Part shown: positions 11,933-64,000 of the stretch, one piece after another
Layout of the letters: every line of letters starts with the position of its first letter
Position numbering within the stretch: position 1 is the stretch's first letter
IMG/VR virus record: IMGVR_UViG_3300041964_000082
Span: 30,715-94,714 of that record
From: a virus
DNA: 64,000 nt
Direction: 5' to 3' (one strand)
The notes under the pieces: model-generated
Database searches by the model: none
The model's input: the letters and a program-made list of their open reading frames with translations, nothing else
What the model was told of the DNA's origin: nothing
Translations under genes and position numbers: made by a program

Positions 11933-11936
11933 TTGT

Positions 11937-12104: not shown

Positions 12105-12130
12105 AGGTTCAATTGAGCATTTGAGCGGTT

Positions 12131-12150
12131 AAAAAGACCCCGAAAGTGGG
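12131..12150 (-). terminator. Intrinsic terminator in the leftward leader
   Basis: On the minus strand GACCCC, short loop, GGGGTC, then TTTTT. It stands about 70 bases downstream of the leftward promoter and 27 bases before the small HTH gene, so transcripts should stop before the gene unless termination is prevented. Confidence 0.6.
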
Positions 12151-12215
12151 GTCAGAAGCTTTTGTATTGCCGAAGGAGGAGACGCCGGAGCAGCGGTTAG
12201 CATGTCCGGTGCGCT
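12131..12215 (-). ncRNA. Candidate short leader RNA of the repressor region
   Basis: Inferred only from the spacing of a promoter-like pair (TTGACG 12250-12245, 18-base spacer, AAGATA 12226-12221) and the intrinsic terminator at 12131-12150. The product would be about 80 nt and lacks a convincing reading frame. It could be an attenuated leader or a regulatory RNA comparable in position to immunity RNAs of temperate phages. Confidence 0.3.
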
Positions 12216-12220
12216 GGTTC

Positions 12221-12321
12221 TATCTTGGCGTAAAACCGGAACTCCGTCAACTAAAACCGGAGGAGCGGTTTTATAGCTAGTACAACCGTAGTTGTGCATA
12301 AAACCGGAACTCCGGTACACT
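12221..12321. promoter_or_regulatory. Divergent promoters with three operator-like repeats
   Basis: Three copies of TAAAACCGGA: site A at 12231-12247 followed by ACTCCG; site B at 12252-12273 forming TAAAACCG-N6-CGGTTTTA; site C at 12299-12316 forming ACCGGA-AC-TCCGGT. Site A lies in the spacer of a leftward promoter (12221-12250). Site C lies in the spacer of a rightward one (TTGTGC 12292-12297, TACACT 12316-12321). Layout resembles a lambda-type operator set for the repressor gene at 12351. Confidence 0.6.
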
Positions 12322-12350
12322 TGGGTCAGAAAGTGACAGCGTACTGACAT

Positions 12351-22150: not shown

Positions 22151-22276
22151 AGGGAGTCGCAACCTACGGATCAACTCTCTCAGTACGTCAGACTTCGTTC
22201 TGCAGACTGCCTCGCAATAAGCCTCTAGCAATGCAAACTCTTCATCATTCAACCGGAAAAACACACTTTTACTCAT
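22136..22276 (-). CDS. Ribbon-helix-helix protein of the TnpB element (46 aa)
   Basis: MSKSVFFRLNDEEFALLEAY followed by CRTKSDVLRELIRRLRL: strand-helix-helix of the CopG/Arc type. Encoded divergently from tnpB inside the element; its start codon is 35 bases from the TnpB start and faces a palindrome at 22283-22301. A likely autoregulator and repressor of TnpB expression (inference). Confidence 0.7.
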   Translation of the reverse strand: MSKSVFFRLNDEEFALLEAYCEAVCRTKSDVLRELIRRLRLPKKPS

Positions 22277-22282
22277 GGCAAG

Positions 22283-22301
22283 GTATATCGTTATGATATA
22301 C
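22283..22301. promoter_or_regulatory. Palindromic operator between tnpB and the RHH gene
   Basis: GTATATC-N5-GATATAC, perfect, immediately upstream of both start codons. AT-rich sequence GATATACAATAG downstream could be part of the tnpB promoter. Suitable for dimer binding by the ribbon-helix-helix protein. Confidence 0.55.
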
Positions 22302-22310
22302 AATAGTAGC

Positions 22311-41436: not shown

Positions 41437-43823
41437 TTAGTAGAGTTGAATTCCTGATCTGCGGATAGCTGTAGAAGTGTTGCGAATCAAGGGTTCCAGT
41501 CCGTATCTGGCAGAGTCTAGGCAGTTATGGACTAGAACGCCATTAGCAAAAAACTCGTGTTGATCTTCGATCGTCAAGTCATACACTTTTTCTGCGACGC
41601 GAGTGCTTGAGACGATTTGCACACGATCGGCTACAAGTTTCAGTTTTGGAGTATTTGTTTGCTCTAAAAGTGATGCTGCAAATTGGGCATACAGCGTCGA
41701 TGTCATCAATTCCGCTATCTCTTCTCCATTTTGACTTGCAAGCGTTTGAGCAGAATCTAGATTGAGTGCCGCATGCGTCTGATTCAAATGATTTGCTGCA
41801 GCAATCGCAAACTCTTTCAATTGACACTCGGTTCTCTTTTGAGAAATTCTTAGCCAGTTTTGCGTGAAGTTTTTTGCCTTCTTCTGAGGAGTGCCACTGC
41901 CTTGTGAGCGGTCGAATGCGATCAAGATGGGCAAGCTGCTGCTCTTTGTTTTCTTGAATCCATTTACGCGCATGATGCGACATATGCTCGGTGACAGAAA
42001 TACACTCAAAATTTTCGAGATCGTTGTTGTCTGTGTCGCCATCTTTGTGATGGATATGATGCCCTTCTGGAATTGCTCCAAAATTGCCAACCCAGATTTG
42101 TCTGTGCAGATACCATTCATGTCCTGCAAGATGCGCTGCTGTTGACTTGTAATAGACGCGATCGTTTCTGCGTTCTGAATCGGGGTATCGCGTGTAAACA
42201 AATCCTTTGTATGTGATTTGCGCTCTTTGGTTGGTTGTTCTTCTGGGCATAGTTCGTTTGCTTCCAGAGTCAATACCTTATCATTATATCGCAGTGCATC
42301 GACTCTAACGAAACCACGCTGTGTAAGGATTTCATGATTTTCGGTAGCTTCAAATTGCTTGCCGAATTTGGTTTTTACTGTAAAGACTGTACGATTTGAA
42401 TCTGTTGCACCTGACCATAAGACGCGCTTAAAGCCAGCACGAGTTAAAACCTTTTCTCCAACTTGTATTTCTTCAATTGGGCGATCGCCTTTGTCGGTTG
42501 TAATTAATGTCCCAGCCGCCAAGCAATGATTGTGTGCATCCACAACGATCGGCAGCACATCACCCGTCAATCGATCGACCTTGTAGGAATAGAGTCGCGC
42601 TTCCTCAATCGTGTTCTTGCAGCGTGGATGGATGATGATCTTGTCATAGCTGCGCAAATGAGCAATGCCATCCTCAACAGACCCAGCACCCTTAGAGACA
42701 GCGACAATCTTGGGGATGCCATGCCGCTTTAGGTAAGAAATGGATTCAGGACGGGCATTGTCTGCGCGAACTGTGTAGAGGTGGCAGTCGGGTATGTCTA
42801 GCTTCCAGCGATCGGCTGTGTGATCAAGCTCTAAACCCACAGCGTAGGATTCGCGTTCAACATGGAGACAGCGATCGTGTATCCACAGCTTGATTAGCAC
42901 GGTCGGGTCTTGAGCAAATCCAAAGTCTGCGCCAAGGTAGGGGCCATCCCATCCAGCCTTGACCTGCACGTCTCCATTAACAGTAGGTTCATAGGGGCTA
43001 AATTCATCTACAAACCACTTGCCATTGAGAATCTGAGCATCTGACTTGATGTTGTAGTGCCCCATCCAAATATGCAAATACGCTTGCATGTCCTGCTTGC
43101 GGGCGGTGTTGGCAAGCGCGATCGCTTCCTCGCTAATAAATGGGTTATCGGTGTAATTGACATTGACCAGAATCGTGCCATCAGGAAGCCCTGACTCACC
43201 CCTGAAGAAGCGATCGACAGGGTTCTCAGGCTGATCAGGGTTCCAGCTAAACCAAATCTCAGAACCAGGCTTACGGATAGTTGGCAGCAACAGATCGATC
43301 GATCGTTGGCTGAGGTTCTGCGCTTCTTCTGCCCAAACAATATCGATGCCTTCTAAACCTTTCACCGAGTCGGCTGTGTGGTCTTGCATCCCCTGGAAGA
43401 TAATGAAGCCGTCGCCCTGCGTCGATCGCACCTCTCCCACCATTTCACGGACTAAATGCTTAACGCCAAAGGATCTGATCTTGTCTTCAATCAGGCTTTA
43501 GCAGAATACTTGAGAGACTTTTGAATCTCCCGAATGCAGACAATCCGCTAGGTCAGGATTCTCGATAAACCGTTGACAATCTGCTCACCAAAGAAGTGAG
43601 ACTTGCCGCCCGATCGCCCACCATATGCGCCTTTGTAGCGAGACTTTGCAAGTAGAGGTTTTGCCCAATCTGGAACGGCAGCAATTTGATCAAGGTTGCG
43701 AACTAGCGATCGCCTTCTTCTCTCCTGCTCAGCCTTTGCCCTCAGTTGCAGGCTAGTTAAGGATGTTGCCGGGTTCGACGCCACTGGCGATCGCTTCGAG
43801 TTCTTCATCGCTGAGCGTGGCAA
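41437..43823 (-). CDS. terL: Terminase large subunit with intein
   Basis: Packaging motor ATPase/nuclease. N-terminal frame has Walker A-like GAYGGRSGGKSHFFG, then (other frames) LRIVCIREIQKSLKYSAKS; the main frame from 43443 has the Walker B GIDIVWAEEAQ, SWNPDQPENPVDRFF, nuclease GADFGFAQDPTV, and the last nuclease motif DAHNH-CLDSARYG, which is split by a 334-aa intein (41524-42525). Indels at about 43450-43560 break the N-terminal part. The start at 43823 overlaps the small subunit and is uncertain. Confidence 0.85.
41524..42525 (-). other. Class 1 mini-intein in TerL (334 aa)
   Basis: Begins CLAAGTLITTDKGDRPIEEI (block A), block B as EATENHEILTQ, block F/G as YDLTIEDQHEFFANGVLVHN followed by Cys of the C-extein. 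Cys1, block B TxNH, penultimate His and terminal Asn are all present, so it should splice. No endonuclease domain is seen in its own frame between blocks B and F. It interrupts the conserved last nuclease motif of terminase between His and Cys. Confidence 0.9.
41579..42250 (-). CDS. HNH homing endonuclease nested out of frame in the intein (223 aa)
   Basis: Complete gene on the same strand as TerL, in a different reading frame, wholly within the intein. N-terminal GFVYTRYPD and YYKSTAAHLAGHEWYLHRQ, HNH_3 motif IPEGHHIHHKDGDTDNND then LENFECISVTEHMSHHARKW, and C-terminal zinc motifs CDCCSKSF ... CSNACKSKW and CPICSITF ... CSRSCANRL. A weak GGAAG site is upstream of the ATG. Both frames are open for all 672 bases. 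Confidence 0.85.
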   Translation of the reverse strand: MPRRTTNQRAQITYKGFVYTRYPDSERRNDRVYYKSTAAHLAGHEWYLHRQIWVGNFGAIPEGHHIHHKDGDTDNNDLENFECISVTEHMSHHARKWIQENKEQQLAHLDRIRPLTRQWHSSEEGKKLHAKLAKNFSKENRVSIERVCDCCSKSFESDACGTQSRFCSNACKSKWRRDSGIDDIDAVCPICSITFRANKYSKTETCSRSCANRLKHSRRRKSV

Positions 43824-46705: not shown

Positions 46706-47376
46706 TTAGGACTCCAGGGCAGTTCTGAGGGCGTTTAGGGCGGCAGACTCACAGCACTTTAATTCGGGCAAGCTCAAGTCATGGTGGGTTGCTATCTGCT
46801 GATCAGACATTCCCAAGTAATAGCGATCGATCGTGACTTCGTACTGCAAAAAAGGAAGGCGGGCGATCGCTTCTTGCAAGGGTTGATGCTCAGGATCTTC
46901 TGAAATTGCGGTTCTGCGGACTGCTGCCACTCCTCATCAAGTGGGGCGATCGACTTGCTAGCGGTTGCCTCCTCTAGCCACTTCCACACTTCCTCTTTAA
47001 TCCCCATCGCCGCCGCAACTTTAACGATCGGAAAATCAAGCCCCTGCGAAACAAGTTGGCGATGCTGTTTTTTTACGCTTGCCGCAGTTTCACGAGCACG
47101 GCGCGGCACTTTCATTAACTCCCCATGATCGCGCAGAAAATGCATGATTTCTCCGCGAATGCAGGGCACAGCAAACGAACTAAATTTAAGCCCTAAAGTC
47201 GGATCGTATCCCTTAAGGGCTTTGGTCAATCCAACTAGTGCAAGTTGCTCTAGGTCTTCTAGTGGTTCACCACAAAGCGACTGCATTCGCCTCGCAACTT
47301 TCAATGCAAGCGGGCGGTGACGATTCAGCAGTTTTGCAATAGGAATGCTTGACCGAACAGAGGAAGCAGATCGCAT
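46706..47376 (-). CDS. Sigma-70 family sigma factor (one indel)
   Basis: Region 2: LALKVARRMQSLCGEPLEDL and GLTKALKGYDPTLGLKFSSF, AVPCIRGEIMHFLRDHGELM, then KVPRRARE. Region 4-like C-terminus: LPFLQYEVTIDRYYLGMSDQ then IATHHDLSLPELKCCESAAL. Matches cyanobacterial group 3 (SigF/B-like) factors. Break near 46885 (add one base after CAATTT). Divergent from the MuF/tail operon, which it may switch on (inference). ATG at 47376 chosen; longer starts exist. Confidence 0.8.
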
Positions 47377-47484
47377 CGAAGCGGCGGCAATGGCTGAGGG
47401 CACGATCAAAAGTACTAATGAGTTGTACTAAATCTAGCGTCCAACGCTTGTGATGTCGAGCTATTTAGCGTTTTAGGGCAAAGT

Positions 47485-50400
47485 GTGAGTAGTGAAGCGG
47501 CAGCACAATTAATCGAGAGAACCGATCGCACTCTTCAAGATATGGAAGATGCGGAAGTCGAACGACTTTATGCAGCCTTAGACGCTTCTTATCGACGACT
47601 CGAAGCTGATCTACTGCGTCGATATCCCAACTACACCGCAGAATCAAAACCGGATTTGCTAGCGACTCAGCGCGGCGTTCTTCTGGTTAATGATCTGCAA
47701 GCGCAACTTGCACTAATTGACCCCGATCGTGAGCAAGAGTTGCGCGATCGCTATGAAAAGTTGCTGTCAACTGCCTCGAAAGAGGGAACGACGCTGGGTG
47801 ATGAGTTAGTAGCGCTTGAGCAGGGCGATAGCTTTGTCAAGGCAACTGCAACTGTACCGATCGAGGCTGCTGCTTTTGCGGCGAGGGATGCAGTCGATCG
47901 CCTCAAGAAACACGATCAGACATTCCGTGAAGAAGCATCCACGATCATCACTCAAGGATTGATTCAAGGGCAAGGAGCGCAAAAGGTTGCTGGATTTCTG
48001 CGGCAGCGGCTAGGAGTAACTAAGGGTAAGGCAGAGACGATCGCCCGCACTGAAATTATTTCGGCTCAAGATTCAGCCACTCGATCGAGATATAAGGAAT
48101 ATGGGGTGGCTTACATTCAGCGAATTGCTACGCAAGACCGTAGGGTCTGTTTTTTTTGCGCCGATCGCGCTGGCAATGTATATCCCGTTGACGCTGCGCC
48201 TGCTGTAATTCATCCGCGAGATCGTTGTTTTAATTCGCCGTATTTCCCTGAGCAAGAGGCATCCGACCCTAAGGCTAACGAGTGGGTTAAGCAACACGCT
48301 CAAAAAGTAAAAGCGACAACTACTGATCAATCGACTGGCAATGTTGCGCCATTTGAACGCGCTGCCAATATCTCTCCGCCTAAGCCAGTTTGGACGCCTG
48401 CCGATGGCTACCTCGATCGCTCAGTGCAGGTCAAGGGCGAACAGTGGGCAGTTGGCAAGCTAGTAGCGCAACTGCTCAAAGATCGATCGCAGCGACAGAC
48501 TCCACAGGAGCAAGTCAACAACGATCTGCTGATTGCGCTCACGGTTGGGGCGGCGGTCGCAGGTACGACAGTCGGCAGCTACTATCTAGCTCGATCGCGC
48601 TATCGCAAAGGGTTTAAGCGATCGGCAACAATGGCACAAGAACTGTCGCAAAAGTTTCGCAAAGGGGTAGAAGCTGACCCCAGCGAAAACGATGAGCAAG
48701 TGACGTTTGTTGTGGGTGGCTTTTCAGGAGAGCAGGGCGGGCAGGGCATTTATCTAGCGAACTACTTTCAAAAAGTCGTACTGCCCAAGCATCGAGTTGT
48801 GGGGGTACGCACACCCGAATTCGATGTAGAAGATCCGGGCGGAGCGCCCACACCTCGCAAGGTAAGCCAAATCTTCTCGAAGTTCCTTTCGACCTGCGAT
48901 CGTCGAAGGTCGCAACATGGCATCCGTGAGAGTGGCAGCGCAAGCCTATGCTTTTCATCAGAAATACCCTGACAAACCGATCAATATCATCGGCTACAGT
49001 GCAGGCGGTGCAACGGCATTCGAGGCAGCAGAGATCCTTAAGGAGATGGGCATCACTGCCAAGGTAGTCGCGATCGGGTCGCCTTATTTCGGCTTCAACG
49101 AAATGTCGCCAGAGCAGGGCATCACGATCGCTGGCACAGGTGATCCGTGGGCACAGCTTAGCGCTCTCAATCGCGTTCCACTTGCCAATGTCAAAAACCA
49201 CTCATTAGAGCAGTATTTGCCGGACGAGGAATTCGTCGCCACGATCAAGCAATTTCTGAAAGGCAGACATTCCGCCCAAAGAACGATCGAGCGAAGCGGC
49301 TGAGCCTGTCAAGACGAGCGAACCATTGACGACGATGTACTAGCACGGCAGATTGACGAACTGATCCCGCAACTGCTGTTGCTCAGTGCTGACGAGATTC
49401 GATTGCTTCCCCCTGCGATCGCGCAAAAGGTTCTTGCTGCCCGTAACGCTGCGGATTACTACCCGGACGCGCTGATCCGAAAGCCTTGCCGGGGCTAGCA
49501 GAACCGAAAGCTCTGCCAGGATATGAGCCATTGCTGGCACTACCTGAAGCACAACCCGTTAAAGGACTGCTGCGGGGTGAGTTGCCACGATTGGCGCTGC
49601 CAGCAGGTGTAGAGCTTGCGCCATTGACACCCGTTGAACGGCAAGCACTGGAAACGAAGATCGCCCGCAATTTGTACAAGCAAGCCCGATCGATCGATCG
49701 GGGAGCCTCACGACTGGCAGAGTTTCGACTGCGGCAGGCGATCGATGAAATCAAGCGGCAGGATATGCCCTGCACAGGCAAAAGGTGCAGCCTATCGCAA
49801 GGCAGTTTTCGAGCAGTTGCAAGGCACGATCGAGACGGCAGAAGCTACGCCACCCGGAGCAAAAGACGCTGAGCAGTTCGATCGCTTTCGATTTAAGGGC
49901 GTCGATTGGTACGTCCCCAAACTAGGAGAAAACAGCCCCACCCTTGACCTATTGCGCAAGGTAGCAGAACTTGACTTGCCTGAGAATGCGCTTGGCAGTG
50001 GGGATATTTACATCACTCGGCAGCGCAACGCTTCAGAGCAGTATTGGCGCAAAAAGCTGAAGCTGAACACGCCTAAAGTAAACGGCATGGTCGCATTCGA
50101 CGAAGGGGCGATCGCGCTCTACGGAGGACGTGCCAAGATTGACGATCTGCTGCTGCAAGCTGGCTATCTGAGGGCGTATCAGCAGTTTGGACAACTGACG
50201 CCACCTGAGCGCTCTGAATACGCCCGTGCCATGCAAGAGACGCGCATGGCGTATCAGAACCGACCCGATCGCGACTTTGCCGAATCGGTGAAAGAGTTTT
50301 TCCTCAATCCTGACTATCTGAAGAAGTTCGCACCCGCCCGCTACGAAACGATCGCCCGCGCTTTTAACTATCGCCATCCGGTCAAGCAACCTGCTGCAAA

Positions 50401-52930
50401 ACCAGTTCCCGTAGCAGAACCTACGACTGAGCAACCAGCTTACGTCCGTCGATTGAGCGACACAACCGATCAAGAGTTAGATCGGTGGATGGCTGAAGCA
50501 CAAAGAATTGAGAAATCAATCGCGCCCAGCCTGAAGGGGCGGATTGAAGAGAGTTTAAGTCTTTTAGAGACACTGAAAGAAGCGATCGCAGAAAGCCCAA
50601 GCACCAAGAAAAACATTCGCGAGATCCGGGACGCTAACAATAATTTGCAGGCGATTGGTCTAATTCAGGTTCGGCGCAGAGGAAGCCAAGATTATATCCA
50701 CGTGGGTGTGTTAGCAACCGCACCCAGCAACATCACAAGAGAGCCTGATTCTGTTAGTGGTGCTGGAAGCGCATTTATGAAGAACTTGGCTCAAGAAGCG
50801 CTGCTTTTGGGTGCAGATTCGATCGAGCTAGATGCAGGTGACGATGCGGAAGGGTTCTACTTCAAACTTGGGTTTACCAAACCTAATCCACCTCAATCTG
50901 CTGAGCCGCAGCAGCCGGATACACGCAGCCCGCAGATTGTTGAAGACTTGCGCACTGCTAACGCCACACTTGCCGATCGCATTCGCACCCAGCGAGAGCA
51001 GGCGAACGAACTCGCAACAGCGCAACGCAGCACCAAGAAAATTCAGCAGGCACTCGATCGAGTGGATCTGCCACGCACTGCGGTGCAGCAGGAGCAAGCG
51101 TCTCAGGAAATTCGCATCCAAGAGGAGGCGATCAACCGAGTCGAAGCGCAGATCGAAGCGATCGAGCAAGCGGGCAGCACAGCTACTAATCCACTCAACC
51201 CGCCCTATTTCTCGACCGTGCCGCAGCAGATTCGAGCAGCTAAGGCGCAACTGAAGCAAGCATCAAAGCAACTACAGGCGATCGAAAACATCGAGCAGAC
51301 CGCCATGAAGCTGCGAACTAACAGTGCAGAACTACAGAGGACGTTGAATGACCTCAGCACTCGTCGCGAATCCTTGCAGGCAGAGGGAGAACGGCGAGAT
51401 GTGGAGCGATCGATCACCACACTGAAACAAGATTTAGAAACCGCAGAGGAAGAGTTGTTGGATCTGCCTCGATCGAGTGAGAAGTCGCAGGCATTGCGAG
51501 ACTTGCAGCGATTGCGGGCAGCAGTAAACTCACAATCTACAGGCGTGAGTGTGGCAGACTTGCACCGCCAAGATCTAGAGCCGCGCATTCGGCAGGTATC
51601 GCAGGCGGCAGAGTCGCTTGAGGTTCTGACGGCTCGACTCGATTCTAGTCGGGACAAGCTAGACGATCTACTACAACGCCTGAATGGGCTACCTACCAAA
51701 ACTCAAGATCTAACCGCAGAACAGCGCGATCGCTACAGTGCAATTAAGCGCACCCGCAACGCTCAAGGCAAGCTGCCGCAGCGGGTAGAGCAGTATCGAC
51801 AGTTACGGGCTGAATTGAGTTCACAGCTTGCCACCCGCGCCAACACCACGCAGCAGCTATCCGACAATTACAGTACTCAGCGGCAGTCAGCGATCAACAA
51901 CCTGCAAGCGATCGTTAGCCGCGATGTCGAAACCGTTCGCACCAACCTACAGATCCTTGCTTCTCTTCGTCCCGGTTCAGTCGCTTGGCTGCTGGATAGC
52001 CGCAACTGGGAAGAAGGGGCGATGCCTTCAGATCTGGCGATCGTCTTGCAGCGCCAACCCGGAAAGACGCCAAACGAGCGCTTGCAGTCTGCCGCCAACG
52101 AAGTAGCAAAACTAGTGGGGCAGGTGAACGGGCGCATCCAATCGATTCAAAAGCAGCTTGACTACCCGGATCAGCTTGCACAGGCTACAACCGCTCAAGC
52201 CGCTGCCCAGATCGCTCAATGGCAGCAGTTGCGCGACGAGTTGGCGGATGAGGGCAGGTTGAGCGATCGCCAGATTCAACAGCTTTTGAAGACGCCAGAG
52301 CGCATTCGAGCGATCGATGTGGCGCGATCGGGCAATCAGTTGATCGAAGACTTGGCAGAGTTCAACCAAGACTTTGCCAACCTGCTTCTAACTGATGAGA
52401 ATGTTGATCCACGCCAAATCATTGATCAGTCGGAACTGTACCGACGCGCTCGTGATGGCTTCGCTGAGGAAACTGCACAGACCAAAGCAGCGATCGCTCG
52501 TGAGATTGAAGATGCTCTTGCAATTGCCACGGCACTACAGCAGCGCAGTGAACGCGATCAAGGGGCAGCGTTAATCTATGAGGTAGATGGTCGCGCGATT
52601 AGCGTGTCAGACTTGCGATCGCAGCTAGAGCAATACAATCAGCAGTTGCGAGAATTCTTGCAGATCCCTCAGATTGATGTAGCGGCAAGAGTGACGGCAG
52701 AAGAAGACGATCGCTTGCGTCGTCGTCAAAGTGAGGTAGAGAAATCTCAAGCGCAGATCGCACGACTGGCAGCACTTCAGGGTGAGCTATCAGAAGTTAA
52801 TTTAGAAATCCAAAAGCGAATTGAAGCCAGAGAGCGTGGGCAGAAACGAGGAATTGCAGTCGATCGCCTCGAAGCAAGACGCAGACGAATCCTAAAAGAC
52901 ATCGAGAACGCAGGCAACCCCAATGGATGA
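47485..52930 (+). CDS. MuF-headed giant polyvalent protein (several indels)
   Basis: About 1,810 aa if continuous. Residues 1-280: SPP1 gp7/Mu F head-morphogenesis domain (ARTEIISAQDSATRSRYKEY, DRRVCFFCADRAG, HPRDRCFNSPY). About 350-370: membrane segment LIALTVGAAVAGTTVGSYYL. About 410-590: alpha/beta hydrolase with GYSAGG (Ser), GTGDPW (Asp) and NHSLEQYL (His). Then Pro/Leu-rich linker, a degenerate ATLF-like metalloprotease region, a GNAT domain (about 50640-50880: GAGSAFMKNLAQEALLLGAD, FYFKLGF), and a coiled coil to the end. Breaks near 48900, 49265, 49325, 49490 and 49775; it might be two proteins split at one of these. Confidence 0.7.
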
Positions 52931-53168
52931 CACCACAGAACGGATTGAAGCAACCGAAAAAAATCCGCTACCTAATGGCGGGAAGTATGCGGTTGTTCGG
53001 TACGAGGGCGCAGACGGGCTACCTGCTACCAAGGCGACGGCAGCTAAGGCAGAAATCATCGAGTACAGTGCGGACGATCGCCCAATATCCCTAATTATTA
53101 TGAGGCTTGGTGATGGAAGAGGTGGATCTGATCGGGCTGAGGACAGCGATCGAGACAGCGCTGAGTGA
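52923..53168 (+). CDS. Small hypothetical protein (about 63-81 aa)
   Basis: MDDTTERIEATEKNPLPNGG, VRYEGADGLPATKATAAKAE, then ISLIIMRLGDG. Overlaps the giant gene by 8 bases. The last 18 residues overlap the next gene and are doubtful; a one-base change near 53112 would end the protein at MRLG. Confidence 0.45.
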   Translation: MDDTTERIEATEKNPLPNGGKYAVVRYEGADGLPATKATAAKAEIIEYSADDRPISLIIMRLGDGRGGSDRAEDSDRDSAE

Positions 53169-53535
53169 TGAACTGGGGATCTATGTTTTCCCAAACGGAC
53201 AGACCACGCCTGCGATCGTGCTGAGCATGGGAACCGATACCAGTCCGATCGTTGGGACTAAGGCGGAGGGGCTAGAGTGTGTGCTTGTGTTCCGTCCTGA
53301 TGTGCCGCTGCGTCCCTTGATGGGCAACGCTTTCGAGGAAACTTACACGGTTCAAATCCTGCTGAAGCAGTGGAGCGCTGAGCAGAACACATTGGGCGCA
53401 CTGTCGCGAATCCTGGAGACGATGATTACATTGCCTGGGTGGTCAGTGCAAAGCGGCAGTGTTCGGCGGCAGATCCCGATCGTAGAGCTTGGCAATATCG
53501 AGATTTTATCGATGGTTCTCACTCAAACTTGCTGA
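53113..53535 (+). CDS. Neck/tail-completion-like protein (140 aa)
   Basis: EEVDLIGLRTAIETALSDEL, LVFRPDVPLRPLMGNAFEET, and ILETMITLPGWSVQSGS; pattern and position (before the tail tube) fit tail-completion or tail-terminator proteins. Family not named with confidence. Confidence 0.5.
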   Translation: MEEVDLIGLRTAIETALSDELGIYVFPNGQTTPAIVLSMGTDTSPIVGTKAEGLECVLVFRPDVPLRPLMGNAFEETYTVQILLKQWSAEQNTLGALSRILETMITLPGWSVQSGSVRRQIPIVELGNIEILSMVLTQTC

Positions 53536-53583
53536 GAGAAGCATAGGAACACTGCCCGCAGAACTAATTCTAAAGACTCTGCA

Positions 53584-54281
53584 ATGGCTAAAACTCCTTT
53601 TTTCACAGGGAAGGGCGTAGAACTGTGGCTAGCTGCGCTTCCCTGATGGTATTGAAACCGAGCCGATCGAATTTACGGCAACGGCATCCGCAGCAGCAAA
53701 AGGGGCAACCACAGTCACCATTACGCCCGCCCTGCCTGCCGATAGCTTCGTGCCCAAAGACAGCTATATCAATGCCATCAGTGCGCTAGGTTACGAGGTT
53801 CTGGTGCAGCTTAATGCTGATGCTGAGGCTGGAGATACAACGCTAACGACCAAGCCACTACCGAAGCGATCGTTGCGGGTTCGACGGTCGAATATCCGCT
53901 CAAGCTTCGCGCTCGTACCACTGCCGACCTTGATCGCTCTGGCAACCGAGTCACACGGTTACTTTTGATGATGATGCCTACGAATCCGGCGCACCACGAC
54001 GATCTCGATCGGACTGAATATGCAAGGTAACTGGTCGCCTCTCGATGCAGGCTACGCCACCGCTGAGCATTGGTTTAACGAGGGCTATCAGCAGCTTTAT
54101 TTCTGGATGCAGCTTCCCAATCCTCGCCCGACTGTTTACAGCAAGGGCAAGGTTTACAAGGGCACAGGGTCAATCACCTCAATGCCGCTATCTGCTCCGG
54201 CTGACGGCATTATCACAGGAAATATTGACGCCGCCTTTAACGGTAAGCCGACGATGGTTAACCCAGCGGCCGATCGTCTAA
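53584..54281 (+). CDS. Major tail tube protein (several indels)
   Basis: MAKTPFFTGKGVELWLAALP, DGIETEPIEFTATASAAAKG, DSYINAISALGYEVLVQLNA, AGSTVEYPLKLRARTTADLD, FDDDAYESGAPTTISIGLNM, GNWSPLDAGYATAEHWFNEG, FWMQLPNPRPTVYSKGKVYK. The closing segment ISMPLSAPADGIITGNIDAAFNG-like is typical of tube proteins. Breaks near 53650, 53860 and 53965. The stop at 54279-54281 assumes one further base corre­ction; the end is approximate. Confidence 0.65.
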
Positions 54282-54347
54282 GGATGATCCGCTCATTGCA
54301 GTCGCGCGGTGTCTTTTGCTGTGGCTGTACGTTGCAGCCCGATGGTG

Positions 54348-54403
54348 TCCAGGTCGCGATCTATATGACTGATGGTAGTCAAATAGGAAATCGCGACCTG
54401 GTA
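54348..54403. repeat. 12-bp perfect inverted repeat around the chaperone start
   Basis: CCAGGTCGCGAT and ATCGCGACCTGG enclosing ATGACTGATGG. It could fold over the start codon of the chaperone gene and lower its translation, or be chance. Confidence 0.5.
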
Positions 54404-54886
54404 GACCTCGACACAAACGATCGCTACACCGTGCAGCTTCCCCAGATCACAGAAAGCCCAACTTACAAGATTTTCTCTCCTATGCCCCTGCCCTACAAAA
54501 CGCTTAAGCCCGTTGAAACCGTCGAAGTAGGCGGGTTCACAATTCGGAAGCGAGGCAGCTTGACCGTAGCCGAAGAACACGCCATGCGCGATCTTGGCGC
54601 TGAAATCGAAACCGAATTGAAAGATCTGACTCCAATGCAGTCAGACTTGGCACTAAAACAGCGTGTAGTCACCATCCTGATTCAGTCACGCCTCGATCGC
54701 GAGTGGAGCCTTGAAAAAACTCAAGCTTCTGTTTGGCCTGTAGAGATGGATGGAGAGACAGCAGAGATTGAACCAGACATGGAAATGCTGGACGCACTGT
54801 TTGACTTCTTCATGGCTGAACAGCGGCGACACAAGTCGATCGAGGATTTAGAGACAGAACCGCAGTCGGCTAAAAAAAAGAAATAA
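54365..54886 (+). CDS. Tail assembly chaperone, short form (gpG-like, 173 aa)
   Basis: MTDGSQIGNRDLVDLDTNDR, LPQITESPTYKIFSPMPLPY, KRGSLTVAEEHAMRDLGAEI. Ends AKKKK and TAA at 54886. Located between tube and tape measure, as lambda gpG. The ATG at 54365 has no clear ribosome-binding site and sits in a 12-bp inverted repeat. Confidence 0.65.
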   Translation: MTDGSQIGNRDLVDLDTNDRYTVQLPQITESPTYKIFSPMPLPYKTLKPVETVEVGGFTIRKRGSLTVAEEHAMRDLGAEIETELKDLTPMQSDLALKQRVVTILIQSRLDREWSLEKTQASVWPVEMDGETAEIEPDMEMLDALFDFFMAEQRRHKSIEDLETEPQSAKKKK

Positions 54887-55263
54887 ATTGGACGGAAACC
54901 TACTGGCGACTGAAGCTGGCATATCCCGGTGAGGAACGCTTCAATGAGGATCGGTTTGGTGATTGTTCTCTGACTGAAGTTGAAGACGCACTAAATGCAC
55001 TCGATCGCCGCGACTTTGAAGCCGCCAATCGTGCCGCCATCCCGATCGCTTCTGTTGGGCAAATGGTCGCTGCTAGTAAGGGTGTTAAGGAAATTGACTC
55101 AGAGATGTTTAACCCCTACGCCAGTGTTCTCTATTCAGAAGAAGCCCGATCGATCATCGATCCAAAAGTTGCTCAAATTTGGCTGGATTTGGCAAATGAG
55201 CAACGCATTCCAAGTTGGGCGATCGCAGAAATTGACATGAAACTGATTCGAGCCGCAGTATGA
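54365..55263 (+). CDS. Tail assembly chaperone, long form via -1 frameshift (gpGT-like)
   Basis: At AAA AAA AAG (54872-54880) a -1 slip on A_AAA_AAG (54874-54880) continues as EINWTETYWRLKLAYPGEER, LTEVEDALNALDRRDFEAAN, then SIIDPKVAQIWLDLANEQ to 55263. The downstream frame has no good start of its own near the junction. This is the conserved G/GT mechanism of tailed phages. Confidence 0.7.
54874..54880 (+). promoter_or_regulatory. Programmed -1 ribosomal frameshift site
   Basis: Heptamer A_AAA_AAG in the zero frame of the chaperone gene, with the zero-frame TAA two codons later and the long downstream frame in -1. A_AAA_AAG is a strong bacterial slippery sequence. No clear stimulatory pseudoknot was evaluated. 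Confidence 0.65.
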
Positions 55264-55634
55264 GCAGCTATAAACTCAGCCTAAACATCACCGAGATCAA
55301 TAGAGCAGCAGAGCAGGCGTTTGTTGACACTGCTTTTCAGTTTGGCGCTGCTATGACTCGCGTAATCTCAGAGCCTCGATCGTGGGCGGGCTGGGATGAC
55401 ACACGAGACATCGTTGACACCGGACAACTGCGATCGAGTCAACTGATGGCCTTTAACAATCCTTTTGAAGCTGCCTACTCGTGGCCTACAGAGTACGCCG
55501 CCTACGTTCACGAAGGCTACACACTAAGAAACGGCGATCGAGTTGCGGGACGACCTTGGACGGTGATTGCACAGCAAGAATTTGACATCCAAGAGGCGTA
55601 TGCTGCGGCATATCAGAAATACATAAATTCGTAG
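55260..55634 (+). CDS. Tail-associated protein, HK97 gp10-like size (124 aa)
   Basis: MSSYKLSLNITEINRAAEQA, RDIVDTGQLRSSQLMAF, WPTEYAAYVHEGYTLRNGDR, GRPWTVIAQQEFDIQEAYAA. 'DTGqLr.S' followed by 'YA.yvHeG' and 'RPw' is typical of minor tail/tail-completion proteins. Overlaps the frameshift gene by ATGA. Confidence 0.6.
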   Translation: MSSYKLSLNITEINRAAEQAFVDTAFQFGAAMTRVISEPRSWAGWDDTRDIVDTGQLRSSQLMAFNNPFEAAYSWPTEYAAYVHEGYTLRNGDRVAGRPWTVIAQQEFDIQEAYAAAYQKYINS

Positions 55635-55723
55635 CCTCTTGTTTTCATCAAAACTTCACAGCCAGAGATTGCAGAATTTTATCCGACGACAAGCATACTA
55701 AAGGGGTCGATTCCATCTTCCTC

Positions 55724-56194
55724 ATGAAAGCTCAAGCATCTGCGATCGCTGTCTTGATTCTTTTGGCTGGCTGCGCTGCTCAATCTAAGCATCTGAGTGG
55801 ACAGGTACTCTTTCCTAGCGCTCCACCGGGGTATGATGGGCAACCCTGTGCTGCGCCAACAGGCTATGACGATATCAAAGCGGGGTTACAGGTTGTCGTC
55901 AAAAATGCAGCAGGCGAGATCGTAGGCAGTGGAACGCTTCAGGAAAGCACGTCAACGGCGAAACCCTTGAACGAAGAGCAGCAGCGAGGATTGCAAGATC
56001 CACAGGTGGCAGCACACCTTGCAGGCAGAGTACCAATTAGCTGTAGCTTCCCTTTCGAGGTTGAAGGAATACCAAAATCTGACTTTTACACGGTTCAGGT
56101 TGGAAATGACGATCGCGGCTCTCTAACTTTTAAGTTTGACCAACTTGAACAGCAGGATTGGAAGGTTGTTTTAACGCTGGGTGATGCGCCCTAG
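55724..56194 (+). CDS. Lipoprotein (156 aa)
   Basis: Signal MKAQASAIAVLILLAGCAAQ with lipobox LAGC, so acylated at Cys16 and held at a membrane. Mature part contains LFPSAPPGYDGQPCAAPTGY and beta-rich SFPFEVEGIPKSDFYTVQVG. Placed between tail genes, unlike a virion protein; it could act on host surface or superinfection (inference). Confidence 0.65.
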   Translation: MKAQASAIAVLILLAGCAAQSKHLSGQVLFPSAPPGYDGQPCAAPTGYDDIKAGLQVVVKNAAGEIVGSGTLQESTSTAKPLNEEQQRGLQDPQVAAHLAGRVPISCSFPFEVEGIPKSDFYTVQVGNDDRGSLTFKFDQLEQQDWKVVLTLGDAP

Positions 56195-56246
56195 CTCGAT
56201 CGCTTTGAGGTAGGAATTCTAGCCACGAAGTCTTTAAGCAAACTTT

Positions 56247-59200
56247 GTGGCAAGTCTCGGAACCCTCAATCTTGTTTTATCCGCAGACTCTAGTCCGCTA
56301 CGCAAAGAGCTAAGCGGAGTCACACGCGAAGCCCAATTTGCCGCCAAAGCAATTCAAGGCATCTCCACAGGCGAAAGCTTTAGCGGTGCAGGGCTTCAGG
56401 TTCTAAGCTCAACCATCATTGGACTAGTTGACGATACCCATCGGCTAGGCAATGAATTCAAGCTCACCACCTCGCTAGTTGAAAACCTAAAAAACGGAAT
56501 TGGTGGTCTTGCTGCCCTGCCGATTCCCGACTTTCAGGCAGAAGCTTTATCCTCACTGGGGCTAGGACAGGTTTCTAGCAGTCTAGAGGTTTTGAGTCTT
56601 GCCTCTACAGGGTTAAAGACGCTGGCGATCGCTCAAGGGATCGCTCAAAACGCGATTGTAGCTTTTAGCGGTGCGCTCGAAACGCTGAGAGTAAACCTCA
56701 AGTTAGTCAGCTATTTCTTCGAGGATATTGGCAATTCACTCAGGGCAGCAGGGGCAATGTTTGCGCCCCTGGTTGGCTTGATGGATGGCGCTGGTCGCGC
56801 ATTCGATCGACTGTCGGAAGGGGCGGGCGACGTTAAAGGCAGGATGATTCTGCCTGGGTTTCGGTTGGCAGCTTTGGGCAGCAACTCCAGAAATTTATCG
56901 GAGCCGCCGAAAAATTCCAGTCGGCAATGGAAGATCTAGGCGAAGCTGCGATCTTTTTAATCAGTGGCAAAACCTAACGACATCTTTGATGCGTTTTTTG
57001 GCGGACTTCAAGAGAATTTTGACGCCGCTCGCAACTTTGAAACGCTAAATAATCGCTTGAACTTACCTCTACATCAGCAGGGTGGAGCGAGAGAAGATCT
57101 AGCCTTCCTTCGGCAAACAGCCAAAGATCTAGGACTAGACTTCAAGGCGGTTAGTGAGGGTTTCGCCCAATTCTCAGCAGCAGCAAAACTAGCAGGGCTA
57201 CAGCGCGATCAGACCAAGCAAGTCTTCACAGATGTATCGCAAGCCGCCTCTGTGATGGGTCTGTCGGCTGAGAGACCTCTGGAGTATTTCTAGCACTGCG
57301 GCAAAGTTTATCAGGTGGAACAGTTCAGCTAGAAGAATTAAACCAATTAGCTGAGCGTGTACCAGGTGCATTTGCTGCTGCTGCCCAAGCGCTAGGGGTA
57401 ACGACAGGCGAGGTTAAAGGCTTGATTTCGGCGGGCAATGTTTCCTCAGCCGACTTTATTCCTAAATTTGCTGCTGCTCTTGCTTCTGTCACCGAGTCCG
57501 GCGTTACTGATGCGATGGGTTCTGGCACAGCAGCGGTCAATCGTTTTAATAACGCGCTGGGCGAAGTGTCGGTTTCACTTGGTAAAGATCTGCTATCATT
57601 CGGTACGCCTGCAATCAATGCCTTTGCCAAAGTGCTTGAATTTGGCGCAGAAAATGCTGAATTGTTGGAACTGCTGTCGATGCATTCCTCGTTGCCGCAG
57701 CAGTACGAGGGGCGGGCGCAGTAGGCAAGATGGGCAGCGTGAGTGCTAGCTTCGTCGCGCAAGGCGGCAAAGGCTCGATCGCAATGCAACTATTTGGGCA
57801 GCAAATCTCGCTTACGACTGCACAGATCGGGAAACTGGCAGCGCAAGCAGGCTTAACTTTCGCTGCCCTAACGGTTTTTTACAAAGTACTCGATCGATTT
57901 AAGGATGGCGGCGGCGAAACCCAAAAGGCAATCGACAGCCTTAACAAGTCCCTGGCTGATCTAAATCAAGCTGCTGGAAATACCACGCCACTTGCTGCAA
58001 TCATTCCTGAAAATCCACCTTCAACCGATTTTCTTGACACATTTGTCCACAAACTAAATGACGCCAACGCTGCAATCAATCGCTTGTTTGGACTGGATGA
58101 AGGCTTTGGCAGACTGACCACCAATGCTGATAAACAGCTAAACGATCAGCTGATCGCGATCGGAGAATTCGGACAAAAAGCGCAGGAGATTTTAGGGCAA
58201 TCGCTCAGCCTGCGTGAACAAAACAAAAGCGGCGACGGAGCGAATCAACGAACTGAAGCAGCTTGACGCAATGCTTGCCCAAATTGAGCAACGCAAAGTC
58301 AATGTTGACCCTGCCAATGAGGACGCGATCGCCCAGATCCGACAGGAAGAAGAAGCGCTATTGAAAGCGACGCGCGGACGCTCAAAAAGAGGTGCAAGCC
58401 ACCCAAAGCGCCATCAACAACGCGCTAACGCAGGCACGGCAAGAGCTTCAGAATCTTGATCCTGCTCAGATGGGGCAAGAGGGATACGATCGCGCTAAGG
58501 AGCAGATTGAGACTCAGATCACGCTCTTAGAGCGAGAGAAAACAGAACTCGATAAGGTTGCCAACGCTGCCACCCAAACCGCTCAAGTTACGGCTGACGC
58601 TTTCAGCAAGTCAAATCACGAGATTGAAGCGGCTACCAGCAGCGGCAGGCAGCGATCGCAGAAGCGCTGGCAAGTGGAGAAATTGACGAAGAGCAATCGA
58701 GAGAACGATCGCTACAGGCTGAGCAAGAATACTTACAGCAAAAGCTGGAACTGAACCGATCTCAGCTTGAAAAGTTGCGGGCAGAACTGGAGAAAAACGC
58801 CAAACTGCGGGCGATCGATCCTGCTGCTGCCACACTGACGGCAGATCAAGAGAAAGCAATACGCAGAGCAGGTAAAGCAGCTTGAACTGAGACGGCACAG
58901 ACCCGCATTCAGATCGCCCAGAACACCGCGAGGGCAAGCAGCAAGCGCTAGAGGATGAACTGAAAGGCATTGAGCAAGCCAACAGCGAGGCTGAGGCGGC
59001 AGTACGCCAAAGTCAGAGCGAACGCACAGCCGCTATCCGTCAGCAGCAGCTAGCAGGCACGGTGGGAGAGGAGGAAGCGCAGCCAGAATTGCCGAAATTC
59101 AGCGCGACTCGATCGCTGAGCAAATCGACCTTGAGCGCGACAAACTCGCTCAGCTTGCAGAACTGGAAGCGCTGGCACAATTCCAGCAGAGGAAGCCGCC

Positions 59201-61411
59201 AAGCGTCGACTAGACATCCAAAGCGAAATCAGTGACCTCAGCTTGCAGCAGATTGAAGCTGAACTCGATGCCCGTCTAGAAGCAGAACGCAAGGCGGCAG
59301 ACGAGGCAAAAGAACTGCGGGATTCGGTAAACGTCGATGCGACTCGCGAAACCACACAGGTGCGAGTGCGGCAGGCAGGCGGCGAAATTAATGAGGCAGA
59401 AGCCGCAGCAGAAATTGCAGAAATTACCGCTAACGCCACTGCGCGGCAGATTGAACTCGTAGAGCAGCGACTGGGAGTGGTGCGGCGTGGCAGCGACGAA
59501 GAGAAGGACTTAACCAGAGAACTTGCTGACTTGCAGCAGCAGTCCGCAGAACAGGAAATCGCCCGTCAAGAGCAGGTGAAGCAGGCGCGACTAGAGGCGA
59601 TCGAACGTGCCAACGAACAAGCTGCGGCGGCAATCGAGTCAGGCGCAAGACCGCAGAAATTACCGCAGTCCGGCAGTTGCAAGCTCAGCGAATTGTCAGC
59701 GCTGAAGAAGCAGAGGCAAGAATTGCTGCAATTCAGCAACGCGGATTGGCAGGTGAAGTAGCCCAAACCCAGCAGCAGATCGCCCAAATTCAGCAGCTTC
59801 GAGCGGAAGCGTTCTTAGTGAAGAAGAAGCGATCGAGCGACTGTCAGACCTAAGGGCGAACTTGGCGAACTAAATCAACAGCGAGTTGAAATGAAATCGA
59901 CGCGCAAGAGCGATTAAAGCAGGCTCGATTGGATGCAATGGAAAGCGCCAATCGTCAAGCAGAGCGGCGATCGATCAGTCGCAAACCGCAGGGATCACTG
60001 CAATTAGAGCTTGCAGGGCCAGCGAATAATTTCAGAGGAAGAAGCCCGCGAAGAAATCGCAGCGCTACAGCAGGAAGGACTTGATCAGGAGATTGCCCAA
60101 ACTCAAGAGCAAATTACAGAAATTCAGCGACTTCGATCTGAAGGCGTTCTCAGCGAAGAAGAAGCTACTAACAGGCTGATCGACCTAAATGGAGAATTAG
60201 GAGACCTTAACCAGGAACGAATCGACGCAGAAATTGACTCTCAAGAGAGACTAAGAGAGTCGCGAATAAAATCCCTTAATGAAGAGCTAGACTTCAAGCG
60301 CAAATCAGCAGAAGCCGATCAGGGACTCAACCAAATTGCGATCGACTCTATTAAAAATGAAAACAATCTTCTGTCTGCTCAAAGCAGTCTGCTTGAGGCT
60401 CAATCAGGGCTAGCAGAGCAGCGACTTCAATACGCATTAGAAGACGCTGAAACGGCAGGCAATAGCGCTCAGGCTGATCAGATCAGACAGCAAATTCTCA
60501 GCCAGCAAACTGTTGCTCAAGAAAAGCAGTTTGCGATCGCTCGACAGCAACTTGAACTTAAGCGTGAACAGGTCGCACTGGAATCACAGCAGCGGCAGAT
60601 TCAAGCTGACATCGCGATTACAGAAGCCGAAGTTGCGCTCTCCACAGCGGCAATCAATGGTGAAAATCAACAGGTGATCGCAGGGCTAGAGCGAATTTTA
60701 GACCTAAGACGGCAGCAGCGAAAGGCAGTCAATGACCAGAACAGAGCGCAAGAGCGATCGCTTGAACTTGAGCAGCAAACGCTCACCACTCAGCAGCAGC
60801 AAACGCGAGAGCAGCAGGCACGGCAGCGGGCGCAGGCAAACAACAGAAACTCAGGCAGCGGCAGTGGTTCGGGCGGTCAATCAGGATCGGGATCAGGATC
60901 TTCTGGAGGCTCAAGGAGTTCTGGATCAAGCTTCGGATCGAGATCTGGACTTGCACCCAGCCGATCGCTTGTCAGTCGAGAGTCGCTGGTCGCTGCAATG
61001 GGTGCGGGAAGTATGCCAGCTAACTTCAGCTATGGCGGATCGGTGGCAGTCAGATGCGGCAAGCGGAATGGCGCACACCAGAATGGAGCGATGGACGATC
61101 GACACCAGTACAAAGTCCTGCTGCTTCGACAATGGCAGCATCTAGGCAGTTAAGTCCTTTGCAGTTGCAAGGGCTATCACAGGCGGGCTTACAGCGCAAT
61201 GCGCAAGCAAATCGCGCAGCTCAGCCACAGACTACAGGAACGTTAACAGCTAGCCAATTCAATAGCGGAATTAATCAGCTATCGCAAAGGATCGTTCAGC
61301 TTGCGAATGCGCCCACGCGCTGTAACATTCCAAACACCCGAACCCGTTCGTGACTATCAGCGAATCTCCAGTGATTTAATGTCTTCTCGCGCTAGAGCAG
61401 CAGGAATATGA
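56247..61411 (+). CDS. Tape measure protein (many indels)
   Basis: About 1,720 aa if continuous. GTG start (MASLGTLNLVLSADSSPLRK), tape-measure N-domain with DLGLDFKAVSEGFAQFSAAA, RQSLSGGTVQLEELNQLAER, ALGVTTGEVKGLISAGNVSS, NRFNNALGEVSVSLGKDL. Then long coiled coil with internal repeats and a Gly/Ser-rich stretch (about 60850-60950), ending YQRISSDLMSSRARAAGI at 61411. At least ten single-base breaks (for example near 56880, 57290, 57690, 58210, 58390, 58650, 58870, 59050, 59760, 60010, 61000, 61320). Confidence 0.75.
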
Positions 61412-61860
61412 AACCAGGAACGATCGAACTCTACGCAGGCGGCATGATGCTCTTACTGGAACTATTCACTGAGGGGACTTTTCCGCGCGAAGATCTTGAG
61501 CCAACAGGCATCACTATCTCACCCTATGGAACGCCCGCGACAGACGGTACAACCTATCACATGAGCATCTGGAACTTGACGGTATTGCTAACTGAAAAAG
61601 ATGCTGAGAAATTAGCAAGAATGTATCGGCTCAGCAAAAGTCAAAATATTTTGATAGTCGATCGCACCGATCGCTATTGGGAACCCACACAAACCAGAGC
61701 GATCGCGTCTGGAGACGTGGCAGTCGTAGAAGACGGAATGACAGGTTACTTTGCTCAGTTTTATGGGCGAATCACTCAGGCGATCAAGCAAGACAAAGAA
61801 GGTAGAATGCGGGCGATACAGTTACAGTTGACCGAAACTGACAAAGTGCCGATCGCATGA
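61408..61860 (+). CDS. Minor tail-associated protein (150 aa)
   Basis: MKPGTIELYAGGMMLLLELF, GTTYHMSIWNLTVLLTEKDA, IVDRTDRYWEPTQTRAIASG. Overlaps the tape measure by TGA/ATG and is followed by ATGA overlap. Position between tape measure and hub suggests distal tail or similar; family not identified. Confidence 0.55.
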   Translation: MKPGTIELYAGGMMLLLELFTEGTFPREDLEPTGITISPYGTPATDGTTYHMSIWNLTVLLTEKDAEKLARMYRLSKSQNILIVDRTDRYWEPTQTRAIASGDVAVVEDGMTGYFAQFYGRITQAIKQDKEGRMRAIQLQLTETDKVPIA

Positions 61861-62109
61861 GCATGAGCGAAGATCTGCAATTACTAAAGCAATTAGGCTT
61901 GTCGCTGGTACTGCGCAATGGGCAATGGTATTGCGGTCAATTTGCGGCGACTTCGAGGGCGATGAAGGCTATTTAGACGAACATGGAAGGATTGATGGGC
62001 TTCTATACAATGCCGGGGTAGCTGATACCATCCCTAAAGCGATCGCGCTTGCTGTTGTCGCTCGTCAAAGTGTGCGGCAGCGATCGAAGAATTGAAATTA
62101 AATCAGTAG
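61857..62109 (+). CDS. Small tail-operon protein (about 83 aa, one or two indels)
   Basis: MSMSEDLQLLKQLGLSLVLR, WYCG-GDFEGDEGYLDEHGR, GLLYNAGVADTIPKAIALAV, CAAAIEELKLNQ. Breaks near 61940 and 62075. ATGA overlap with the previous gene. Function unknown. Confidence 0.5.
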
Positions 62110-62142
62110 GAATTCTCACGGCAGCTTATCTAGCGCTGCCTA

Positions 62143-63983
62143 ATGACCGTCGATCGCAGTTCCCGCCCTTTCAAAATCGTCGTTGCTGCGCCTGGTGAAT
62201 CGATCGCGCAAGGTCTGGATGTAACCGCGATCGTTAAGTCGTTCAGCGGTAGCTGCAACCTACTCGATCAAAGTGGAATTCAATCTTGGACAGGCGACAT
62301 AGTATTAAATGCTTATTCGCCAGGAATCACGATCGAGTGCAACCCCAGACGCGATCGCAGTTCGTTGGGCACGTGGCAATCGTGTAGTGATTTGGCTGGC
62401 AGACAGTACAGGTGCGCTAGTCAGATATAAGACGGTTCACATCCTCAAAGAACCGCTACCGCCCACGCCAAGAGTCCGCCCAACTATCACCCTAGACATT
62501 GGTGATAAGCTTGCGCTCCTTGACTTTAGGCAACCACCGGGGATGAAAGCGGCGTTGCACCCGGTACAACCAGCACTCGATCGGATGTCGTAGGCATCCC
62601 TGCTACGGGCGGCAGGGGCAGGCAATCTCACCGGATCAATTCCTGGTGATGTAATTGCCCATTGCAAAAGTTAGGCAGTGAAGGTTTATCCAGCAGGCAG
62701 GGCAGATTGCTTTGCCGCTGGAGATATCTCTGGTGTGATGCCACTGGAGATGTTCGCGCTTCGGCAATTCCTGACGATGAGGACGCAACCGCACCACGCC
62801 TGAATAGTAATCAGCAAGACGAACTTGGATGAAGCGATCAGCAGCGATGAAACGCCTTGTCGAAAATTGTCCGGTGTACGGGTATGACATATTACGAAGT
62901 TTACGGACGACTACATCAAAAGCACTGTTGAAACGTGGGGGCCAGCGCGAGCGTAAGCCCCAACGCAGGCGGCATCACAATCTTTGACAGAAGAAACGAT
63001 CGAGGAGTCTTGGGGACCAAACTCACGAACCGTCAGAACTACCGAGTAGAACGCGCGGGCTTGTCTTCCGATGTATGAGAGCATTCGAATTGCCTAGTGA
63101 CTAGCCTCGATCAAGAGGAAAACGTTCGTCTACGACCAGGATTAGAAGGGAAGCTGCTACGGATTGAGAAGCATGTTCGCAAAGCCTATGGCGTGGCACT
63201 GCGCGAATATTACGCCACCACAATCTGCGCAAGAGCATGGCAAACAATCGATCTAACATGAATCGCGGGCTGAGCGCACAATCACGACTATCGACTACAG
63301 CCTAGAGCAGACGATCGGAGTCTACAGCGATACGTCAGAACCACAGGGCGCGATCTTGCCTGGTGAAGATTGGACGTTTGGTAACCCTGCTTTTTTAGTG
63401 CCTTCTGCCGCTGAGAATCAAACCTGGAAAGAGGTCTATAAGGGTGAATGGAAATACACGAAATCGACCTATGAAGCAGTTGCGCGGGCATTTCCAGAGG
63501 TGATCGAGGCGATGCTGCCGGATACGCCAACCTCGGCAAAGTTGGGGATCTTGCTCACCGATAACAGACCGTAACTAGCAACTCAGGACAGGCGCAACCG
63601 CCTGCACCCGATCGACGGAAACCGAAAACAACCACAGAAGAAAGACCGATCGAAGGTGTGGCAGAATTCCGCTCTTACGCAGGCGCAGAGTATCAGGAGA
63701 GAGAGCGCACCTACGATGTACCCTACGCCGATCAAGAAGAGTTAAACGCCACAGCAAGACGACTAGGCAACTTACTGATCGGGCGACATTAGGGCAGAAT
63801 ATCGAGTTCGCGCTGAGTGACTATTGGCTGAACGATCGACCACCATTGCAGACAATATCGGTGATTGAGCCTGACAGTCGTGAGTATAAATTCCTGCTGA
63901 ATAATATTGCGATCGCGTTCGATAACCGCACCTGTTTTTTAGGGGGCGATGGCATTTGGCTAGGGGAGATTGTTGATGACTAA
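62143..63983 (+). CDS. Baseplate hub/tail tip-like protein (several indels)
   Basis: About 610 aa. SRPFKIVVAAPGESIAQGLD, IAVRWARGNRVVIWLADSTG, PTITLDIGDKLALLDFRQP, FDRRNDRGVLGTKLTNRQNY, EENVRLRPGLEGKLLRIEKH, LREYYATTICARAWQTIDL, TTIDYSLEQTIGVYSDTSEP, IAIAFDNRTCFLGGDGIWLG. The repeated beta-rich plan and position after the tape measure fit a tail hub or tip protein. Breaks near 62310, 62550, 62680, 62890, 63080, 63260 and 63575, 63790. Confidence 0.55.
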
Positions 63984-64000
63984 ACGCCTGAAGCTACCTT
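63976..64000 (+). CDS. Start of a downstream gene (partial)
   Basis: ATG 63976 (MTKRLKLP...) overlaps the hub gene's stop by eight bases and continues beyond the window. Too short to identify. Confidence 0.5.

Follow-up and report, generated by a model that had tools for sequence, protein, structure and literature searches.

A MuF-domain cyanophage protein with a membrane-linked, lipase-type hydrolase module as a candidate for delivery from the virion

One gene across four reading frames

The window analyzed here, a stretch of 64,000 nucleotides, is part of the 94.7-kb IMG/VR virus record IMGVR_UViG_3300041964_000082. At positions 47485-52930 of its plus strand, to which all feature coordinates below refer unless a strand is given, four overlapping open reading frames follow one another, i.e., there are three successive frame changes. 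Together, they encode a MuF domain, a predicted membrane helix, an alpha/beta-hydrolase domain, a linker, a conserved region, an insert and a long charged coil. The frames were left unmended, and the analysis was made on the separate pieces and on intact relatives. In locus L003 (IMGVR_UViG_3300018877_000004), where the DNA is ~91-92% identical to that of the window, the entire stretch is one open frame of 1650 codons. A second relative, locus L046, is a prophage in a cyanobacterial genome (G071, selected from the phylum to which a Leptolyngbyaceae metagenome-assembled genome belongs) and has a single frame of 1645 codons that spans the stretch, is co-linear with it at 41% identity and has the same architecture; a first scan of genome contigs recovered no relatives. 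The GTG start at 47485 aligns with the starts in both loci. Sequencing errors, rather than gene boundaries, are therefore the most probable source of the window's frame breaks, and the one uncut chain proposed in an earlier reading of the DNA (hereafter the sequence-only reading) is what the clean sequence of both relatives contains. That separate genes for a MuF protein, a hydrolase and a helical protein mimic a single one through overlapping frames, as the four frames of the window itself could suggest, is scarcely credible given the single open frames found in L003 and, independently, in L046, and the error-prone window record; this arrangement is rejected for the part from the MuF domain through the coil, while the insert is known from the window record alone.

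The two ends of the record (window 51568-64000 and positions 1-12433 of the record, G000) overlap over 12.4 kb with 91% identity and ~150 gap openings, a number that agrees with an indel-prone assembly. When the coil is compared to the other copy in the record, 67 of the 74 mismatches are found at codon position 3, which indicates that the coil is constrained. Because the substitutions lie mostly at this position, the record ends are read as coming from two strains, with a circular or permuted genome, that were merged in one contig, i.e., as a difference beyond plain sequencing error.

Every part of the gene is under strong purifying selection. In a comparison of the window with L003, the ratio of nonsynonymous to synonymous substitution rates (dN/dS) ranges from 0.016 to 0.074, with values of 0.045 for the MuF domain, 0.039 for the helix and hydrolase, 0.016 for the linker, 0.074 for the conserved region (below referred to as protease-like) and 0.040 for the coil. 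The stretch encodes one functional protein of ~1,650 residues without the insert and ~1,800 residues with it. The synonymous rate (dS) in the same comparison varies along the gene, from 0.64 in the MuF domain to ~0.21 from the hydrolase to the protease-like region and 0.38 in the coil, a sign of recombination mosaicism.

The MuF (also named SPP1 gp7) domain is found at 47941-48228. It matches PF04233 (E=6.4e-10, 40.2 bits, cut-off 29.6) and the minor head protein family phrog_115 (7e-26), and the intact L003 protein matches TIGR01641 (1.2e-13, 51.4 bits, cut-off 39.65). The Pfam and TIGRFAM matches are above their cut-offs, and the assignment, which the sequence-only reading had made from motifs, is considered secure. 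Terminase and head scaffold genes lie near the gene in the window, as do terminase and portal genes in L003, while the order in L046 is terminase, an open reading frame of 485 residues, the MuF-hydrolase gene and the major head protein gene. With MuF and hydrolase in one frame in both L003 and L046, the predicted protein has the architecture of a polyvalent protein.

The membrane helix and the hydrolase module

The hydrolase module starts with a predicted membrane helix, LLIALTVGAAVAGTTVGSYYLA, at 48526-48594 (residues 348-370 of P0001). This segment is the best hydropathy peak (maximum 1.59), is a helix in the structure model and aligns with hydrophobic helices of the other family members, in agreement with the helix placed after the MuF domain by the sequence-only reading. 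The alpha/beta-hydrolase domain itself (48697-49300) spans one of the frame changes. It matches the Pfam Thioesterase family PF00975 above the cut-off (5.3e-7), and a hidden Markov model (HMM) of the family recognizes its two pieces at 1.2e-36 and 4e-53. An AlphaFold model has a predicted template modeling score of 0.79, with a predicted local distance difference test score (pLDDT) of at least 90 for 130 of 277 residues, and Foldseek aligns this model with LipA-type lipases and cutinases (best match 4.6e-6, to a lipase). A profile match was also obtained to a Trichoderma esterase (cutinase; 1.9e-5).

The putative catalytic residues follow in the order Ser-Asp-His, i.e., the nucleophile Ser of GYSAGG (48998-49000), the Asp of GTGDPW (49142-49144) and the His of KNHSLEQ (49199-49201), which are present in 29/36, 35/35 and 34/34, respectively, of the modules aligned at each site. 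An alignment of 11 modules, in which Asp and His are invariant and Ser is nearly so, agrees with this wider table, and neither of the two diverged lineages with MuF-fused copies has lost any of the three residues. The domain is thus a predicted serine alpha/beta-hydrolase of the lipase/cutinase type with a secure fold and putative catalysis, and the motifs that the sequence-only reading had noticed in the correct order are supported by family, fold and conservation. The Ser is replaced by Gly in the last tandem module of CL131 (gp048; see below), L017, L018, L034 and L035, and it has been lost from both modules of L049, while Asp and His are retained in these Ser-less modules, which appear to be pseudo-enzymes conserved across lineages.

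The module composed of helix and hydrolase is found repeatedly in further loci of phages and cyanobacterial prophages. It is fused to MuF in the window, L003, L004 and L046, and it is found inside tape measure proteins in L038 (PF20155, 3.8e-13) and, by matches to several tape measure PHROGs, in L047 and L048. Up to four modules occur in the large proteins encoded directly upstream of a tape measure gene in L034, in L049 (weak tape measure match) and in the cultured Aphanizomenon phage vB_AphaS-CL131 (CL131), where the hypothetical proteins gp047 and gp048 carry homologous modules (30% identity, E=6e-17); the layout is the same in L017, L018 and L035, where the next gene is without a family match. 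In head gene clusters, the module is located between the genes for a neck protein and for a head maturation protease (L039) or ahead of a head maturation protease gene (L016). Three hydrolase-module genes are present in L015, and stand-alone module proteins of 282 residues are encoded in L019-L021 (that of L022 is cut by the contig end); in L019, only a few genes separate the module from a gene of a major head protein family. In the module tree the MuF-fused copies form a group (96/92), as do the tape-measure-fused copies, although the latter have long branches that may attract each other. Judged from these contexts, the helix and hydrolase form a mobile module of cyanophages. The two parts that are fused in the window lineage are apart in L015, L016 and CL131, where the MuF domain resides in a separate protein; this is an argument for a joint function of both in one particle.

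Other segments accompany the module in some of these proteins. A DnaJ J-domain, which may recruit a host chaperone, is found within the hydrolase-module protein of L016 (L016:6830-11242, PF00226 3.6e-16) and, by eye, in that of L017 (L017:6836-11467). The tape measure protein of L038 (L038:8149-15573, 2474 residues) contains, in addition to the hydrolase module, a stretch that resembles HEYTH-type metallopeptidases (PF20573 0.00092, below cut-off), and cysteine motifs of the form CKxGKxCGxxCIPKxxxC recur ahead of the hydrolase modules in L007, L015, L017, L018 and L034.

The conserved region, the insert and the coil

A Pro/Leu-rich linker with a short helical region (49301-49783) spans the other two frame changes; it is continuous in L003. 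It is followed by a conserved region (49784-50380) that the sequence-only reading had likened to an ATLF metalloprotease lacking the HExxH motif. The lack of the motif holds in all three sequences (LLLQAGYL in the window and L003, LLRQMAYL in L046). A relationship to proteases is not demonstrated: the sole family signal, a marginal similarity to zincins, is PF06167 (M90) at E=0.0036 for L046, below the cut-off, and no match was found in a search against the PDB or in a profile comparison with the MuF protein of a Scytonema plasmid. A structure model of this region together with the GNAT-like segment, built from only two sequences, has a pLDDT of 39 and is unusable. With no motif and no significant match, the metalloprotease reading is not retained. 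The region is more conserved than the hydrolase module (52% against 36% identity between L003 and L046), which suggests that it has some role other than that of a standard zinc protease. In the Scytonema protein (Scytonema sp. NIES-4073 plasmid2, L008:8001-9860), the MuF domain, the closest one on a plasmid (37%), precedes a stretch with FHEAGHH, i.e., an intact HExxH, and the same plasmid also codes for a phage tail sheath.

An insert of ~500 bp with a GNAT-like segment follows at 50379-50887 (best part ~50639-50881). It is replaced by ~16 bp in L003 and L004 and is absent from L046, i.e., from all three relatives of the MuF protein, and its GC content at third codon positions is 0.48 compared to 0.60 and 0.67 in the two flanks. 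The GNAT signal (PF13673, E=0.0012, 19.3 bits) lies below the cut-off of 23.6 bits, with weaker signals of PF13508 and PF00583 at the same place. Relatives of the segment were not found among phages, plasmids, IMG/VR and 386 cyanobacterial genomes, in a search that is weak and has no positive control. A GNAT identity is plausible on these profile signals, not proven, and the insert is most readily understood as an optional module, possibly a GNAT, that was acquired recently; it is known from one record and is not part of the conserved protein. A GNAT domain had been proposed in the sequence-only reading: the family signal remains, while its membership in the conserved protein falls, and with it the combination of hydrolase and GNAT as a characteristic trait. 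GNAT as a defining domain is rejected, as the segment is found in the window record only.

From 50888 to 52927 a charged helical or coil region extends to the C-terminus (~650 residues, 42% D/E/K/R/Q). It is 39% identical in L046 and displays the codon-position bias described above. The long coiled coil of the sequence-only reading is retained; its family matches are weak and of the SMC type only.

Possible functions and known systems

Virion enzymes that cut peptidoglycan at entry are well known, and little is established about how phage DNA gets across the cytoplasmic membrane. The literature searched contains no account of an enzyme that is delivered from the virion and has the membrane itself as its target. 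A first point of comparison is SPP1 gp7, where binding to the portal targets a few copies of the protein to the procapsid interior, and only ~25% of the virions that lack gp7 are infectious (PMC6316719). Delivery to the host has been suggested for MuF fusions (PMC5576092, PMC5512222), and virion enzymes are located in tape measure or capsid-inner proteins (PMC6116005).

The whole of the observations could be explained by a cyanophage minor head protein that delivers a membrane-placed, lipase-type hydrolase at entry, a reading in which our confidence is evenly divided. By analogy with SPP1 gp7, the MuF domain would target a few copies to the portal and the capsid interior, from where the protein would exit the particle along with the DNA. 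The membrane helix would then set the hydrolase, whose fold and triad are supported as described above, at the host membrane, where it may cleave an ester; the most likely target is a membrane lipid or a lipid-linked group. Such cleavage would facilitate DNA entry or prepare the membrane at an early stage of infection. Packing, oligomerization or translocation is the probable task of the coil and of the conserved non-catalytic region, the hydrolase would be part of a virion module that in other phages resides within the tape measure protein or beside it, and the GNAT-like segment would be a recent, optional insert. Modules inside and beside tape measure proteins strengthen the idea of virion delivery; together with the capsid targeting of SPP1 gp7 (PMC6316719), they make the delivery with DNA suggested by the sequence-only reading plausible, and we infer, as that reading did, that the protein might act on membrane lipid or host proteins. 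Several points weigh against this explanation. Presence in the virion, ejection and enzyme activity of the chain are putative, the membrane helix is deduced from hydropathy and the model only, and a chain of 1,800 residues would have to pass the tail. The loss of Ser from last tandem copies and from both L049 copies means, in addition, that some modules are not enzymes and that the fold can serve without catalysis. A broader proposal, i.e., that cyanophages carry an undescribed family of virion-borne, membrane-anchored lipases on MuF or tape measure proteins that open or remodel the cyanobacterial membrane at entry, is tentative and somewhat doubtful.

Among the alternatives, the ejected hydrolase may be an effector, of the sort proposed for MuF polymorphic toxins and polyvalent proteins, that hits a host target, competing phages or a defence system rather than aiding DNA entry. 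The combination of an N-terminal MuF domain and enzymatic C-terminal parts that vary is the published pattern (PMC5576092, PMC5512222), and the gain of the GNAT-like insert and the mosaic dS fit module shuffling. However, the architecture is constant across 41% identity (L003, L004 and L046), the C-terminus is not polymorphic, and the same hydrolase occurs in tape measure proteins; we regard an effector role as unlikely. The Ser-less modules lead to another alternative, a structural or assembly role in which the hydrolase fold and coil are architectural elements of the neck or the tail, with catalysis either vestigial or confined to maturation. Loss of Ser in 7 of 36 modules where Asp and His stay, the tandem copies and the occurrence of modules both within tape measure proteins and in head clusters fit such a role, but the full triad in MuF-fused copies of both diverged lineages does not, and it is judged to be slightly less likely than an effector role. 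Finally, a late esterase that damages the envelope at lysis, like LysB of mycobacteriophages, an alpha/beta-hydrolase esterase of the lysis cassette (PMC6116005), is suggested by a weak endolysin match (phrog_102, 0.04) and a distant Lysin B among the fold matches, but is highly improbable for a hydrolase fused to head and tape measure proteins outside any lysis cassette.

As a MuF polyvalent protein, the gene product is of a known kind. It shares with the MuF minor head proteins (PF04233, TIGR01641) a domain above the family cut-offs that is encoded with head genes, but SPP1 gp7 is small, and the helix, hydrolase, conserved region and coil belong to the window protein only. With the MuF polymorphic toxins (PMC5576092) and polyvalent proteins (PMC5512222), where GNATs and inactive domains also occur, it shares a MuF head followed by further domains and a proposed delivery with phage DNA; unlike these, it has a constant architecture and a membrane-linked enzyme, and the words hydrolase and lipase are absent from the main texts of both papers. 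The CL131 proteins differ by their four modules, Cys-rich spacers and a MuF domain encoded separately. Bacterial LipA-type lipases and fungal cutinases have the same small alpha/beta-hydrolase fold, GxSxG motif and Ser-Asp-His order, but are only ~15-19% identical, and the window hydrolase has a membrane helix and sits in a giant virion-type protein. Enzyme domains are also found in other tape measure proteins, as in L038, L047 and L048, but the muralytic ones (PMC6116005) cut peptidoglycan, whereas an alpha/beta-hydrolase fold cuts esters; that review does not mention lipase or phospholipase. LysB is likewise a phage alpha/beta-hydrolase that acts on lipid esters, but it is a lysis protein, unfused to head or tail proteins.

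The literature searched, with partial coverage, holds nothing relevant on lipases within tape measure or MuF proteins and no precedent for MuF with a membrane-anchored lipase-like hydrolase or for a hydrolase family common to MuF and tape measure proteins, which is not proof of novelty. The presence of one module on both kinds of proteins links two delivery routes, and the four copies in the cultured phage CL131, whose virions have been analyzed by mass spectrometry (23 proteins, PMC6293099), offer a testable handle.

In the window, the MuF gene adjoins a divergent gene at 46792-47409 (minus strand) for a sigma-70 region 2 protein (PF04542, 6.4e-14), as is also the case in L003 and L004. The terminase large subunit (41437-43443, minus strand; 668 residues) contains an intein (PF14890 1.7e-14; Hint_2 5.9e-11), and its counterpart in L003 has 461 residues. 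Elsewhere, the phage carries a transposase-family gene (phrog_506; 22275-23522, plus strand) and two DNA methyltransferase genes (4609-5583 and 8019-9161, both minus strand).

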